A stretch of 38,394 nt of DNA from Candidatus Peregrinibacteria bacterium. Its GTDB lineage: Bacteria > Patescibacteriota > Gracilibacteria > UBA1369 > LOWO2-01-FULL-3. The notes beneath the pieces are model-generated. The model saw only the letters and a program-made list of their open reading frames with translations. It made no database searches and was not told the DNA's origin. The first letter of the stretch is position 1, and each line of letters starts with the position of its first letter. The translations under genes were made by a program, and so were the position numbers. Below, piece after piece: positions 33,407 through 38,394 of the stretch. The stretch lies in assembly GCA_030688025.1 (NCBI GenBank), contig JAUYJL010000029.1:1-38394 (forward strand), written 5' to 3'.

Positions 33407-33712
33407 ATGACCAAAGTTAACAAATACGAAAATTTGAGTAAACCACAGGCAGAGTTTGATTTTCACGATAGAGGAATTTTGAACGAAAGTAATATAAAAC
33501 ACATGACAGACGAATTTTTGCATGATTGCATGCGCAGAGGTTATATCAAAGTACTTTTTATCACAGGCAAAGGTCTGCATTCAAAGAAAGGAATGCCTGT
33601 AATAAAGCCATTTTTACGACAATACTTAAGTTCCTTATCATTCGTCGGACAAGTTTACGAAGGCCGATTTGATAGAGGGGGGACGGGAACTTTGGAAGTG
33701 ACTTTGGATTGA
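33407..33712 (+). CDS. stand-alone Smr-domain protein
   Basis: From ATG 33407 the product is 101 residues; the frame upstream to 33311 is not used because the promoter lies inside it. Smr-domain motifs are visible: F-D-F-H near the start (normally LDLHG), ITGKGLHSKKG (the core HGxG-like loop), VIKPFLRQYL and the end GGTGTLEVTLD. Smr domains are found alone or at the C-terminus of MutS2 and act as nucleases on nicked or branched DNA, or on stalled-ribosome mRNA (SmrB). No MutS2 is nearby. Confidence 0.85.
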   Translation: MTKVNKYENLSKPQAEFDFHDRGILNESNIKHMTDEFLHDCMRRGYIKVLFITGKGLHSKKGMPVIKPFLRQYLSSLSFVGQVYEGRFDRGGTGTLEVTLD

Positions 33713-33744
33713 ACCGGCCTTAATTACGTCATATAGTTTTACTA

Positions 33745-33772
33745 TTGACGTTTTTAACAATAAGAATATAAT
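33745..33772 (+). promoter_or_regulatory. promoter of the trp operon
   Basis: A -35 TTGACG (33745-33750), 16-bp spacer and TATAAT (33767-33772) are nearly consensus. The start of transcription is expected at about 33779, 21 nt before trpR. No other promoter is evident before trpE. Confidence 0.75.
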
Positions 33773-33797
33773 TGCTAGCGTAATAGTACAATAGTAC
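33772..33797 (+). promoter_or_regulatory. candidate TrpR operator
   Basis: Bases 33772-33789 match the E. coli trp operator core (from memory) at 12 of 18 positions. Both half-sites, CTAG and TAGTAC, are in the correct register. It begins in the last base of the -10 box and covers the expected transcription start. A second GTAC follows (33794-33797), giving GTAC-N4-GTAC at 33786-33797. This fits autoregulation of trpR and the whole operon, but the match is by eye. Confidence 0.5.
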
Positions 33798-33799
33798 AA

Positions 33800-34060
33800 A
33801 TGAGTAACAATCAAATAAACGAATTAGCGGACGCGGTAATGGAAATCAAAGAAAGGCAAGAGGCCAAAGATTTTTTGAAAAACATATTAACGCCTGGAGA
33901 ACTAGATGAAATAGTTAAAAGATTACAAATAATAAAATTACTAAAGAAAGGTGTACCTCAAAGAGAAATAGCAAAAAAATTGGATGTTAGTATCGGAACA
34001 ATAACAAGAGGCTCAAGAGAATTAAAATACGGAGCACCAGGATTTAAAAAAATAATATGA
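33800..34060 (+). CDS. trpR: Trp repressor family transcription factor
   Basis: The 86-residue all-helical protein has the TrpR pattern: N-terminal dimerisation helices, L-T-P-G-E (30-34), RLQIIKLLKKGVPQREIAKKL and the recognition helix region SIGTITRGSRELKYG (64-78), which carries the ITRGS core shared by TrpR and YerC/YecD proteins. As the first gene of a trp operon it is most likely a true tryptophan-responsive repressor, but the YerC/YecD branch has the same look. Length is slightly below E. coli TrpR (108). The TGA stop (34058-34060) overlaps the ATG of the leader peptide, so the two are coupled. The protein itself contains no Trp. Confidence 0.88.
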   Translation: MSNNQINELADAVMEIKERQEAKDFLKNILTPGELDEIVKRLQIIKLLKKGVPQREIAKKLDVSIGTITRGSRELKYGAPGFKKII

Positions 34061-34119
34061 ACACGTATATCGTAAAAAATTGGTGGCAACTATCAACTTT
34101 TAGGCGCAGGAAAAGCTAA
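34057..34119 (+). CDS. trpL: trp operon leader peptide with tandem Trp codons
   Basis: The ORF encodes 20 residues, MNTYIVKNWWQLSTFRRRKS, with Trp9 and Trp10 as adjacent TGG codons (34081-34086). It starts in an ATGA overlap with the trpR stop, so ribosomes finishing trpR may restart here. It ends at TAA 34117-34119, 24 nt before an intrinsic terminator. The last codons (AGG CGC AGG A, 34102-34111) form the 5' arm of the antiterminator. These are the features of a leader peptide that senses charged tRNA-Trp by ribosome stalling. Its product would have no other role. The ORF is well below normal gene-calling length. Confidence 0.85.
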   Translation: MNTYIVKNWWQLSTFRRRKS

Positions 34120-34156
34120 CTTTTTTGAATTATTAACTAGTTATCCTCCTGTCGCC
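34103..34156 (+). promoter_or_regulatory. antiterminator helix of the trp attenuator
   Basis: Bases 34103-34111 (GGCGCAGGA) can pair with 34147-34156 (TCCTG-T-CGCC): GGCG with CGCC and CAGGA with TCCTG, with one bulged T at 34152. This helix takes both arms of the terminator stem (part of the 5' arm and the loop with the 3' arm start), so the two structures exclude each other. A ribosome stalled at Trp9/Trp10 leaves 34103-34111 free; a ribosome at the stop codon covers it. Confidence 0.7.
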
Positions 34157-34170
34157 AGGGGGATTTTTTT
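34143..34170 (+). terminator. intrinsic terminator (attenuator) before trpE
   Basis: ATCCTCCTG (34143-34151) pairs with CAGGGGGAT (34156-34164) in a 9-bp stem (eight Watson-Crick pairs and one G-T) with a TCGC tetraloop. It runs directly into seven T (34164-34170). The trpE ATG is 22 nt further downstream, so the hairpin cannot serve any gene end other than trpL. Confidence 0.88.
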
Positions 34171-34192
34171 ATTCAAATAAATTCATAAAACA

Positions 34193-35569
34193 ATGCAAAC
34201 AAAAGTAGGAAAACTAAAAATAAGTATCACGGATCCAAAAGATGTATTCTCGAAAATATATCAGGATTACAAATATAAATTTCTTTTCGAATCAAAAGAC
34301 GTATCACAAATATACGGAAGATTAAGCATGATAGGGATAGATCCAATATTAAAGATAACAGGTAAAAATAAATCATTTGAGGTAGAGGTACTTAATAAAC
34401 GCGGACATGAATACCTAAAACAACTCAACCAAACATCACAGGAAAACGGGAATATCTCAATGATAATCAAACATGTTCTAAAAACATTCAAAACAGATGA
34501 AAAAACATTGCTTGGTCTTTACGGGACATTTAGCTACGACTTTGTCAGGCTTTTCGAGGATATTGGAGATTCATTGCCGGATAATGACATAAATGATTTT
34601 ACTTTATTACTGTACGACACCTTCATATTCTTCGATCATCTTAAGGATAACGCAGAAATAATAGTTTATCGAAAAAATAAAAAAGAGATAAAGAAAGATA
34701 TTGAGAAAATATCAAACAAATTAAACAAACAGCCGGTAAACCCAGAATACAGAATCAAAAATCCATATTTTAGCTTTAGCGAAAAACAGTATGAAGGTTT
34801 AGTTAAAACAGCAAAGCTCTACACTAAAAAAGGGGATTTATTCGAAGTGGTTTTTTCAAACATACTGAAAGCAGAATTCGAGGGCGATCCATTTGGACTT
34901 TACCTCAGATACAGGAAAGAAAACCCATCTCCGTATTTATTTTTCTTTGACTTGGGTCATGAGCAACTTGTAGGAGCATCTCCGGAAATGATGGTCCGAT
35001 ACGAAAATGGAATAGTAAATCTTCGTCCAATATCTGGAACAATCAAGAGAGGTGAAAATCCAATAGAAGATCATGAAAATATGCTCAAATTGTTAATGGA
35101 TCCAAAAGAAAAAGCAGAGCTAGATATGCTCATAGACTTGGGAAGAAATGATCTTAGCAGGGTGTGTAAACCAGGTATAAAAATTACAGACTATCGATTT
35201 GTGGAAAAATATTCAAAAGTAATGCATACGGTCGCAAATTTATCCGGAGAGCTACAAGAAGGACGTACAGCACTTGATGCACTGATAGCATGTCTTAATG
35301 CCGGAACCTTAACTGGTGCGCCAAAAGTCGCAGCAATGAAGATTATAGAAAAACATGAAAAAGAAAGACGAGGTTATTACGGAGGAACAATCGGATATTT
35401 AACATTTTCAGGAGAAATGGATACAGGAATCATTATTAGAACTGCACACATCAAAAATGGACAACTTAGATTTCAAGTAGGGGCTACACTTTTGAACGAT
35501 TCCAAGCCAAAAAAAGAATACCAAGAAACGATAAACAAAGCTCAAGCTTTTCTTAATACCTTCATCTAA
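34193..35569 (+). CDS. trpE: anthranilate synthase component I
   Basis: TrpE converts chorismate and ammonia (from TrpG) to anthranilate. The 458-residue protein shows the N-terminal feedback-binding motif as L31-F-E-S34 (LLES in E. coli), then NPSPYLFFFDLG (244-255), the chorismate-binding blocks SGTIKRGENP (281-290), LGRNDLSRVCKPG (316-328), LNAGTLTGAPKVAAM (368-382) and RFQVGATLL. Length is at the short end of the family (450-520). The LFES motif suggests tryptophan feedback inhibition remains. It is the first structural gene after the attenuator; trpG begins 5 nt after its stop. Confidence 0.96.
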   Translation: MQTKVGKLKISITDPKDVFSKIYQDYKYKFLFESKDVSQIYGRLSMIGIDPILKITGKNKSFEVEVLNKRGHEYLKQLNQTSQENGNISMIIKHVLKTFKTDEKTLLGLYGTFSYDFVRLFEDIGDSLPDNDINDFTLLLYDTFIFFDHLKDNAEIIVYRKNKKEIKKDIEKISNKLNKQPVNPEYRIKNPYFSFSEKQYEGLVKTAKLYTKKGDLFEVVFSNILKAEFEGDPFGLYLRYRKENPSPYLFFFDLGHEQLVGASPEMMVRYENGIVNLRPISGTIKRGENPIEDHENMLKLLMDPKEKAELDMLIDLGRNDLSRVCKPGIKITDYRFVEKYSKVMHTVANLSGELQEGRTALDALIACLNAGTLTGAPKVAAMKIIEKHEKERRGYYGGTIGYLTFSGEMDTGIIIRTAHIKNGQLRFQVGATLLNDSKPKKEYQETINKAQAFLNTFI

Positions 35570-35574
35570 AAACT

Positions 35575-36135
35575 ATGAAAAAAATATTACTCATCGACAA
35601 TTTTGATTCATTCACCTTCAATTTAGTTGATTATTTTAAACAGTTGGATTGTGAAGTTGAAGTGCATAGAAATGACATGGATCCACAAAAAATACATGAA
35701 ATAAATCCAGATCTGATAGTGATTTCTCCAGGTCCATCCATACCCAAAAAAGCAGGTAATTTGATGAAAATAATAGAGATATCTCATGAAAAATATCCAA
35801 TATTTGGAGTCTGTCTAGGGCACGAGGCGTTGATTGAATATTTTGGAGGTTCATTGAAATTTGTAAAACCTGTGCATGGGAAATCATCAAAAATAAAACA
35901 TAATAGCAAAGGAATATTTTTAGGTCTTGAACAAAATTTTCAAGGAGGAAGATATCATTCTTTAATCTCTGATAAAGTCCCGAAATGCTTTGAGATTACA
36001 GCAAAAAGCGAAGGACTTGTCATGGCGATCAAACATAAAACTTTACCAATAGAAGGCGTTCAATTCCATCCGGAGTCAGTCCTGACAATGAAAAATGACA
36101 ATGGATTTAAGCTAATTAAAAACCTAATATCATGA
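35575..36135 (+). CDS. trpG: anthranilate synthase component II (glutamine amidotransferase)
   Basis: TrpG releases ammonia from glutamine for TrpE. The 186-residue protein has the N-terminal LLIDNFDSFTFNL, the oxyanion loop SPGPS (51-55), the nucleophile Cys80 in GVCLGHE, RYHSL (126-130) and H165-P-E167-S, completing the Cys-His-Glu triad. The residue after GVCLGH is Glu84, while most members have Gln there. It is not fused to TrpD, and its stop TGA overlaps the ATG of the fused trpDCF gene by 4 nt (ATGA). Confidence 0.95.
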   Translation: MKKILLIDNFDSFTFNLVDYFKQLDCEVEVHRNDMDPQKIHEINPDLIVISPGPSIPKKAGNLMKIIEISHEKYPIFGVCLGHEALIEYFGGSLKFVKPVHGKSSKIKHNSKGIFLGLEQNFQGGRYHSLISDKVPKCFEITAKSEGLVMAIKHKTLPIEGVQFHPESVLTMKNDNGFKLIKNLIS

Positions 36136-38333
36136 ACATACAAACATTTCTTGAAAAAAGTATAAACAATGAATTGTCTCTCGAAACACAAATAAATTTT
36201 CTGCGAGATAAAAAAGATATCACTTCAAAAGGACTAGCAACGGCAGTGAAATTCTTGATGGAAAAAATGGCAAAGAGATCTTTAATCAAAAATGCTATAG
36301 ATATATGTGGAACTGGTGGATCAGGTTTACAAAGAATAAATACATCAACAATTTCTGCGTTCATATTGGCAGCAGCTGGAGTAAAGATAGCTAAACACGG
36401 GAATAAAGCCGCAAGCGGTCGCTTTGGGAGCTTTGATTTACTAGAAAGTATCGGAATAGATTTCTCAAACAATAAAGCGGAAAATCTAAATTTTTTATAT
36501 GCTCGAGATTATCATCCATTAATGAAACATTTTGCAGAAGTTAGAAAAGAAATTGGCACACCAACATTTTTTAATCTATTAGGTCCACTATTAAATCCCG
36601 CCGCTACAAAAAAACAAATAATAGGAACATCATTCAAAGATAAAATGGGATTAATCGCAGAGACATGCAGGTTAATTGGGAAAGAAAAAGTATATGTTGT
36701 CTGCGGAGAAGATGGCTTAGACGAAGTAACTCTAACCGGTAAAACATTTATTTTAGAATTAAACGAAGGGAAAATAACAAATTATACGATTAGTCCAAAA
36801 GATTTCGGGATTCAAAAATCAAAATTTTCGGAAATAAAAAGTGGTTCACCAAAACAGAATACAGCCATTGCCATCAAAATATTAAAAGGAGAATGTAAAA
36901 CAAGGCATGTTGATTTGGTCTTGATGAACGCAGGATTAGCACTGAAACTAGTAGGAAAAGTAGAAAGTTTGAAGGAAGGATACACTCTCGCGAAACAAAT
37001 AATAGAGACAGGTTTAGCATTTGAGAAATATCAAGAATGTAAAACTCCAGATATCCTAAAACAAATAATAAATAAAATTCCAAATTTACAGAAATCAGAT
37101 AGAGATTTTTATGGCGCAATAAATAAAAGAGAATTATCTCTAATTGCAGAAATAAAAAGAAAATCACCAAGCAAAGGAATGATAGCGGAACAAGATTTTT
37201 TACCTTCAAAAATAGCTAAAAATTACGAGAAATCAGGAGCAGATGCTATATCAGTTGTATGTGAAAAAAACTTCTTTGGTGGATCTTTAAAATATATGAA
37301 ACAAGCAAGAAAAAACACATACTTCACTCCAATACTTTGCAAAGATTTCATAATACATGAGTATCAAATTTACGAAGCAAGAAAATATGGAGCAGATGCA
37401 ATACTACTTATCGCAGCGATTTTAACAGAAACAAAAATCAAGAAATTCACAGGGATTGCGAAAGATTTAAACATGGATGTTTTATGTGAAGTTCACACAT
37501 TTGAAGAACTTCAAAAAGTACTAAAAACTACTGTAAAAATAATAGGAATAAACAACCGAGATCTACGAACATTCGAAGTCGATCTGAAAACAACAGAAAG
37601 AATTGCAAAACATATCCCAAAAGATAGATTGATCGTTTCAGAAAGCGGAATCTTTACCAAAGAAGATATAAAAAATCTTCCCAAAAGAACTAATGCGATT
37701 TTAGTTGGGACATCATTAATGAAAGGTACTCCAGTGCAGAAATTAGTATCAACGAAAATCAAAATATGCGGAGTTAGGACGGGAGAAGTAGCAAAATTTT
37801 GCGAAAAAAACGGAGTCGATTTCGTAGGATTAAACTTCGTTCCAACAAGCAAAAGAAAAATAGACGAGAAGAAATTACAAGAACTATCTAAATATCTAAA
37901 AAATACAAAGAAAGTCGGTATCTTCCAAAATCAACCTCTAAAAGAAGTAAACAACCTATCGAAAAATTTAGACTTTATCCAACTTTGTGGTAACGAATCA
38001 ATAGAGTACATAAAAAAATGTAAAAAACCGGTAATAAAAACAATACCACTAAAAAACAGCGATGATGTAGCTCTAGCGGAAAAATATTATCAACATGTTA
38101 CCTTCATATGTTTCGACGGAGTAAATCCTGGAAGCGGAAAATCTTTTGATTATGTATTAATCAAAGACTTCGATCATCCATTTTTTATTAGTGGAGGAAT
38201 CAATTCCGGGACACTAAATTCTGCTATGCAAACAGCTCCTATATGCATAGATATCGCAAGCGGAGTAGAAACAGGGGGACAAATAGATACAAAAAAAATT
38301 ACAGAAATCCTTAACCAATTAAAATTATGTTAA
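36132..38333 (+). CDS. trpDCF: trifunctional TrpD-TrpC-TrpF fusion
   Basis: The 733-residue protein carries three consecutive tryptophan-pathway enzymes. Residues 1-312 are anthranilate phosphoribosyltransferase (DICGTGGSG 57-65, KHGNKAASG 88-96, GLDEVT 195-200). Residues about 325-538 are indole-3-glycerol-phosphate synthase (EIKRKSPSKG 340-349, K404 in LCKDF, INNRDL 473-478, VSESGI 502-507). Residues 541-733 are phosphoribosylanthranilate isomerase (KICGVR 544-549 with Cys546, GLNFVPTSKR 566-575, QLCG 617-620, Asp662 in FDGVNPGSGK). The TrpC part is shorter than stand-alone TrpC (about 255) because its N-terminal helix is reduced. The frame is uninterrupted, with linkers of about 12 and 3 residues. 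It overlaps trpG and, at its end, the next gene. TrpC-TrpF fusions are common; adding TrpD is unusual. Confidence 0.95.
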   Translation: MNIQTFLEKSINNELSLETQINFLRDKKDITSKGLATAVKFLMEKMAKRSLIKNAIDICGTGGSGLQRINTSTISAFILAAAGVKIAKHGNKAASGRFGSFDLLESIGIDFSNNKAENLNFLYARDYHPLMKHFAEVRKEIGTPTFFNLLGPLLNPAATKKQIIGTSFKDKMGLIAETCRLIGKEKVYVVCGEDGLDEVTLTGKTFILELNEGKITNYTISPKDFGIQKSKFSEIKSGSPKQNTAIAIKILKGECKTRHVDLVLMNAGLALKLVGKVESLKEGYTLAKQIIETGLAFEKYQECKTPDILKQIINKIPNLQKSDRDFYGAINKRELSLIAEIKRKSPSKGMIAEQDFLPSKIAKNYEKSGADAISVVCEKNFFGGSLKYMKQARKNTYFTPILCKDFIIHEYQIYEARKYGADAILLIAAILTETKIKKFTGIAKDLNMDVLCEVHTFEELQKVLKTTVKIIGINNRDLRTFEVDLKTTERIAKHIPKDRLIVSESGIFTKEDIKNLPKRTNAILVGTSLMKGTPVQKLVSTKIKICGVRTGEVAKFCEKNGVDFVGLNFVPTSKRKIDEKKLQELSKYLKNTKKVGIFQNQPLKEVNNLSKNLDFIQLCGNESIEYIKKCKKPVIKTIPLKNSDDVALAEKYYQHVTFICFDGVNPGSGKSFDYVLIKDFDHPFFISGGINSGTLNSAMQTAPICIDIASGVETGGQIDTKKITEILNQLKLC

Positions 38334-38394
38334 ATCCACAATATAAACTCGTAAGCAGAAAATTTAATCAACAAAATACTTTGGTTAAAGTCGG
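38328..38394 (+). CDS. aroF: 3-deoxy-7-phosphoheptulonate (DAHP) synthase, 5' fragment
   Basis: Only the first 22 codons are in the window (MLNPQYKLVSRKFNQQNTLV...). They match the stretch P-Y-K-L-V-S-R-E-F that starts the catalytic barrel of Thermotoga-type (type I beta) DAHP synthases, from memory. That protein has an additional N-terminal regulatory domain, absent here, so this would be the core-only form. It overlaps the end of trpDCF by 6 nt, so it is co-translated. DAHP synthase is the first step toward chorismate, the substrate of TrpE. The fragment is too short for certainty. Confidence 0.6.

Follow-up and report, generated by a model that had tools for sequence, protein, structure and literature searches.

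A putative ribosome-mediated trp attenuator overlapping the repressor gene trpR in Peregrinibacteria and other lineages of the Candidate Phyla Radiation

The window, i.e. the whole stretch of 38,394 nucleotides that was analysed, derives from a Candidatus Peregrinibacteria genome (G000; 1.18 Mb, 98% complete), a member of the Candidate Phyla Radiation (CPR), and carries a set of trp genes, all on the + strand. The first of them, trpR (33800-34060), codes for an 86-aa repressor of the TrpR family and is followed by trpE (34193-35569; anthranilate synthase component I) and trpG (35575-36135; component II), both assigned by Pfam/NCBIfam profile searches, and by a trpD-trpC-trpF fusion (36132-38333; Pfam domains PF00591, PF00218 and PF00697), which encodes one 733-aa protein. 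In another genome (G047; L197, 5341-8145) a 934-aa protein has a TrpG-like domain at its start and the length expected for a TrpG-D-C-F fusion. The genes trpB and trpA of G000 are located on contig C5 behind aroF, a name given from reading the sequence and not from a profile search, and together with trpEGDCF and trpS they make the tryptophan pathway genes of this genome appear complete. As an ORF that overlaps the end of trpDCF runs to the end of the window (38327-38394) and C5 opens inside the aroF-like gene (L195, 1-726), it is likely that a single operon, trpR-L-E-G-DCF-aroF-B-A, has been split by a contig break.

Ahead of trpR lies a promoter-like site, TTGACG-16-TATAAT (33745-33772, + strand), which was identified by consensus match alone (11 of 12 positions) and is the best of the region. 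It is followed by a trp-operator-like palindrome, CGTAATAGTACAATAGTACA (33779-33798, + strand), which agrees with the published TrpR motif, TGTAcTnGTnnACnAgTACA (PMC9413887), at 13 of 16 positions and constitutes the best match to this motif across the whole 38-kb window. Operator-like sites (p<0.05) also precede 31 of the 36 CPR trpR genes examined. The other operator-like matches in G000 are about as numerous as those of a reversed-pattern control and give no ground for claiming a wider TrpR regulon. Judged by profile scores, the repressor is a member of the PF01371 family (90.4 bits, cut-off 27); it scores slightly below the cut-off of the TrpR equivalog TIGR01321 (64.9 bits, cut-off 67.25) and above that of TIGR02531 (YerC/YecD; 51.1 bits, cut-off 42.2), and among solved structures it matches E. 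coli-type TrpR chains with E~1e-5 and TrpR-like proteins with 1e-9 to 1e-10. G000 contains a second TrpR-family paralogue (C7:55006-55254, L196), which may be a HisR-like histidine repressor, because a similar gene in G048 is positioned directly ahead of hisS (L030 adjoins hisS).

The stretch between trpR and trpE contains a further ORF of 20 codons, MNTYIVKNWWQLSTFRRRKS (34057-34119, + strand), whose ATG overlaps the trpR stop codon as ATGA and whose own stop codon is 34117-34119. Codons 9 and 10 of this putative leader peptide are tandem TGG codons (34081-34086), the presumed regulatory codons, which are conserved in the leaders of relatives, where they occur as WW, WWW or spaced W. Downstream, the terminator scan places an intrinsic terminator at 34143-34171, consisting of a 9-bp hairpin (34143-34164) with a loop of 4 and a subsequent T-run; two overlapping terminator-like sites were found in the 700-bp region, as compared to 0.2 expected. 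According to the pairing analysis, the end of the leader ORF overlaps the 5' arm of an antiterminator (region 2, 34103-34111), which pairs with a 3' arm (region 3, 34147-34156) that in turn overlaps the 5' arm and loop of the terminator; T34152 is bulged, and an inner extension pairs 34115-34121 with 34139-34145. A sequence-only reading of this stretch had proposed the 20-codon ORF with its tandem Trp codons, the 9-bp terminator with T-run and the antiterminator, all of which are present at the positions it gave, and had overlooked trpR, the ATGA overlap and the operator-like palindrome. Its remark that a clear 1:2 protector is missing also holds: folding yields no helix that sequesters 34103-34111 with upstream sequence, and a hairpin over the Trp codons (34080-34096) leaves this arm free. 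The 1:2 hairpin belongs to the E. coli system, and we do not regard it as indispensable to the mechanism.

Folding with parts of the RNA occluded by a ribosome gives the switching that the earlier reading had predicted. With the ribosome stalled at Trp codon 9 the probability of the terminator is 0.02 and that of the antiterminator about 0.97, a ribosome at the stop codon gives a terminator probability of 1.0, and stalling at codon 10 results in a near-even mix at equilibrium (terminator probability 0.45). In the free RNA the terminator has a probability of 0.37-0.41 and the antiterminator of 0.63, so that, for lack of a 1:2 protector, readthrough would prevail on leader RNA that is not translated. 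Over 30 leaders, a ribosome at the stop codon gives a higher terminator probability than a stalled one (Wilcoxon p=7e-7), and the value for the former exceeds 0.8 in 26 of the 30 loci; a switch of more than 0.5 is reached in only 14 of 30 loci in this simple equilibrium occlusion model. Since actual switching is co-transcriptional and the antiterminator is synthesized first, equilibrium folding probably errs on the conservative side.

The elements, their mutual exclusion and their spacing are evident from sequence and folding, and ribosome-mediated trp attenuation, as proposed in the sequence-only reading, is their best explanation. Thus, with a probability of roughly 0.9, we regard the interval 34057-34171 as a ribosome-mediated attenuator that would sense charged tRNA-Trp inside a trpR-trpL-trpE-trpG-trpDCF operon and that would separate the structural genes from an autogenous repressor gene. 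The ATGA overlap suggests that ribosomes finishing trpR restart at the leader ATG. If Trp is sufficient, the ribosome would reach the stop codon and cover the arm 34103-34111, so that, according to the folding, the hairpin 34143-34164 could form and RNA polymerase would halt after trpR. If Trp-tRNA is short, the ribosome would stall at codons 9-10 and leave this arm free about 16 nt downstream, the free arm would pair with 34147-34156, and the terminator would be blocked, allowing the transcription of trpEG(DCF). The repressor itself would escape attenuation because trpR precedes the terminator. The ribosomes that translate the leader probably come from trpR; leader translation would then be automatic, which may remove the need for a 1:2 protector. 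Given its family and the operator match, TrpR at 33779-33798 would add a second layer, and the operon thus appears to be under dual control, with TrpR at the promoter setting initiation and the attenuator behind trpR setting readthrough. The earlier reading had envisaged a CPR host with few regulators, of which the CPR host stands; as TrpR is encoded directly upstream in a gene overlapping the leader, attenuation would not be a plain substitute for regulators that are missing.

Being a leader RNA in front of trpE, the element might also act on translation by sequestering the trpE start, or respond to another sensor, e.g. a T-box or a TRAP-like protein, and such systems do control trp genes elsewhere (for TRAP and TrpL see PMC7755916). 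In the window, however, the trpE start lies outside both the antiterminator and the terminator helix, the T-run behind the hairpin is typical of intrinsic termination, and no relevant Rfam family, T-box included, reached the gathering score in the window or in 20 leader loci. Even at a lax threshold nothing relevant was detected in 33700-34300, the best match being Phe_leader with 18 bits (versus 55 required; E=2.5), and we regard translational control or a different sensor as extremely improbable.

To follow the arrangement in relatives, the search for TrpR homologues covered the order (89 genomes), the phylum (380 genomes) and GTDB contigs, the latter with the narrower TrpR alignment A2, since A1 was too diverse, and the sequence following trpR was inspected. 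This yielded 25 separate Trp-rich leaders from Peregrinibacteria and other CPR lineages, the carriers outside Peregrinibacteria including Kuenenbacteria, Magasanikbacteria and Liptonbacteria. Of these leaders 21 contain WW, and Trp accounts for 62 of the 456 leader residues, tallies that are biased because the set was chosen as Trp-containing. The leader sequences differ and the layout is the same, ahead of trpE (MMTRNNKNWWWINTSEQLRR in L004, MIRTNTTWWNWNQKSRF in L012, MMMNIASKMWWWNEDLM in L013, MYKRQIIMNWWWEDHMIRRF in L017, MGKRINQNNVWWWTRLYMQTRR in L010, MIKNLRKNWWNNLIALL in L043 and MISLLSTFHDSWWTHSF in L063), trpB (MKMISCYQHWWTTSLWR in L146, MSINRINLVNNWWACFWR in L148 and MKGNGNLLNWWNCWRS in L155) or trpS (MKNNQTVQFWWWTVSWR in L154). 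Many leaders overlap trpR by 4, 8 or 11 nt, and the 4-nt overlap of the window recurs in L004, L012, L013, L043, L063, L070 and L146. L070 was rejected as an attenuator candidate, having one Trp codon and an unsupported antiterminator (p=1.0). In G047 the leader, MNKKTTIWWTKIE, is set apart from trpR and has its own promoter and operator-like site. Judged from these sequences, we infer that the same module occurs across Peregrinibacteria and in several other CPR lineages.

An unbiased figure for the Trp codons comes from a scan for WW ORFs behind trpR over 126 trpR-like loci, non-CPR ones included; it gave 19 where dinucleotide shuffles predict 0.8, and the antisense strand had 1. The search for terminators made no use of the antiterminator; an automatic scan detected one in 28 of 30 loci, and inspection by hand one in L063, at a median distance of 25 nt past the leader stop codon. 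For the antiterminator, the best pairing between the stretch past the Trp codons and the 5' arm of the terminator was compared with shuffles, and the duplex is individually significant (p<0.05) in 22 of 29 leaders (Fisher p=6e-25). As the leaders are too diverged to be aligned as one RNA, a partner-swap permutation was used in place of a covariance model, pairing each leader of 26 non-redundant loci with the terminators of other leaders. The native mean is -15.1, versus -8.5 (sd 0.5) for swapped partners (z=-12.3), and none of 20,000 permutations reached the native value. Complementarity is thus kept while the sequences change, which is the equivalent of a covariation test, and the conservation of Trp codons and both helices that the earlier reading had expected in relatives is borne out by the 25 separate leaders and by this permutation.

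These data bear on the possibility that the hairpin is a leaky terminator ending trpR, that the WW sORF is there by chance and that trpE is expressed via constant readthrough or a promoter of its own. The position of the terminator close behind trpR would fit such a scenario, as would the whole-leader folding energy, which is ordinary in isolation (z -1.2); taken by itself, the duplex in the window reaches a modest -13.6 kcal/mol (p=0.028 versus dinucleotide shuffles). The decisive evidence against chance is conservation, i.e. the excess of WW ORFs and the antiterminator pairing maintained through sequence change; moreover, when the region was scanned, the + strand from the leader to trpE proved free of promoter-like sites. 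A chance ORF in front of a leaky terminator is therefore highly unlikely.

The attenuator is not present in all relatives. Within the same family, trpR is joined directly to trpE in several operons (L005, L006, L008, L009 and L011) that have no leader; on this distribution the attenuator is dispensable, and these operons point to an apparent loss in one clade. The same-genus genomes G001-G003 contain neither a trp-operon trpR nor a close trpE, so that these genomes offered no very near orthologue for alignment. The leaderless operons, together with the trpR gene and the operator-like site, would be compatible with TrpR being the sole regulator of the operon and the leader a relic whose only remaining role is to link trpE translation to that of trpR. 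Yet in diverged lineages the WW codons, the terminator and a matched antiterminator are kept at similar spacing, and in the window a 73-nt gap containing the terminator separates the leader stop codon from trpE, which makes a mere coupling relic very improbable.

In six genomes Trp codons are found in the C-terminal tail of TrpR itself, and in five of the six a terminator and an antiterminator are present. In these five (L007, L014, L019, L022 and L023) there is no separate leader; a C-terminal extension of TrpR carries 1 to 4 Trp codons (tails ending in ...VIAWWQPSTIWQMWS in L014, ...KNWWQENYSRSRC in L022 and ...SWRGQSKLWPGSLL in L023) and is followed by the terminator and a significant antiterminator (p 0.002-0.010). 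The sixth, L024, has a WW tail and only an untypical hairpin, located in a downstream tRNA-like stretch, and was not counted as an attenuator. In a TrpR tree (91 columns, poorly resolved) the genes with tails are scattered among those with leaders, and as its supported branches force at least four changes between the labels tail and leader, the tail form seems to have originated on several occasions, in exchange with the separate leader that overlaps trpR. We lean, with some reservation, towards the view that in part of the phylum the repressor gene would itself be the leader, i.e. the ribosome making TrpR would also act as sensor and decide on transcription into the trp genes. If so, a single mRNA segment would encode both layers of tryptophan control.

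The mechanism is of the known TrpL kind. Like the window, the E. coli TrpL attenuator comprises a short ORF with tandem Trp codons and mutually exclusive antiterminator and terminator structures before trpE, with TrpR as second layer (PMC7755916). In contrast to E. coli, the leader of the window comes after trpR and shares bases with the trpR stop codon, a 1:2 protector is missing, the host belongs to the CPR and the autogenous repressor gene is part of the same operon. The order of repressor gene, intergenic region and trp genes is shared with trpR-IGR-trpBA of Chlamydia trachomatis, where TrpL-type attenuation is disputed, as the putative TrpL of 59 aa has no consecutive Trp codons and scored as a poor attenuator, and where YtgR acts in its place (PMC7755916); in the window, WW codons, antiterminator and terminator are all present and conserved. 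Marinomonas and Marinobacterium (Gammaproteobacteria) have a related TrpR and trpR directly ahead of trpE, but the gap is about 22-44 nt and contains neither leader nor terminator. Gram-positive HisR/TrpR repressors and his leader attenuators provide TrpR-family proteins and non-proteobacterial leader-peptide attenuators (PMC9413887, PMC2965389), yet these systems are histidine-specific, and their RNA attenuators occur in groups without HisR, uncoupled from the repressor gene. According to a survey of 2010, leader-peptide attenuation was known only from Proteobacteria and Actinobacteria before Firmicutes were added (PMC2965389). A search of the open-access literature for CPR, Patescibacteria or Peregrinibacteria combined with trp attenuation or leader peptides found no relevant paper and, within this literature, the trpR-coupled form, the TrpR-tail form and the CPR host appear undescribed.

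Attenuation would extend across the CPR, here in genomes of about 1 Mb, the regulation of which is little studied, and would there be joined to a repressor gene. Translation of leader and repressor would be one event, a design that tests whether translational coupling can stand in for the 1:2 pause hairpin known from E. coli and that suggests how leader peptides may arise from, or merge into, adjoining coding sequence.

Two variants of the arrangement may be added. In L154, from another CPR lineage, trpR is followed by the WWW leader, a terminator-like hairpin and trpS, with an antiterminator that is not significant (p=0.13), and tryptophanyl-tRNA synthetase is apparently under the same control. 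In three Peribacter loci (L078, L093 and L119) and one from Liptonbacteria (L087) the WW leader has a second trp-operator-like palindrome, which overlaps its start codon or stands immediately before it; this suggests a nearly leaderless transcript under TrpR control of its own.
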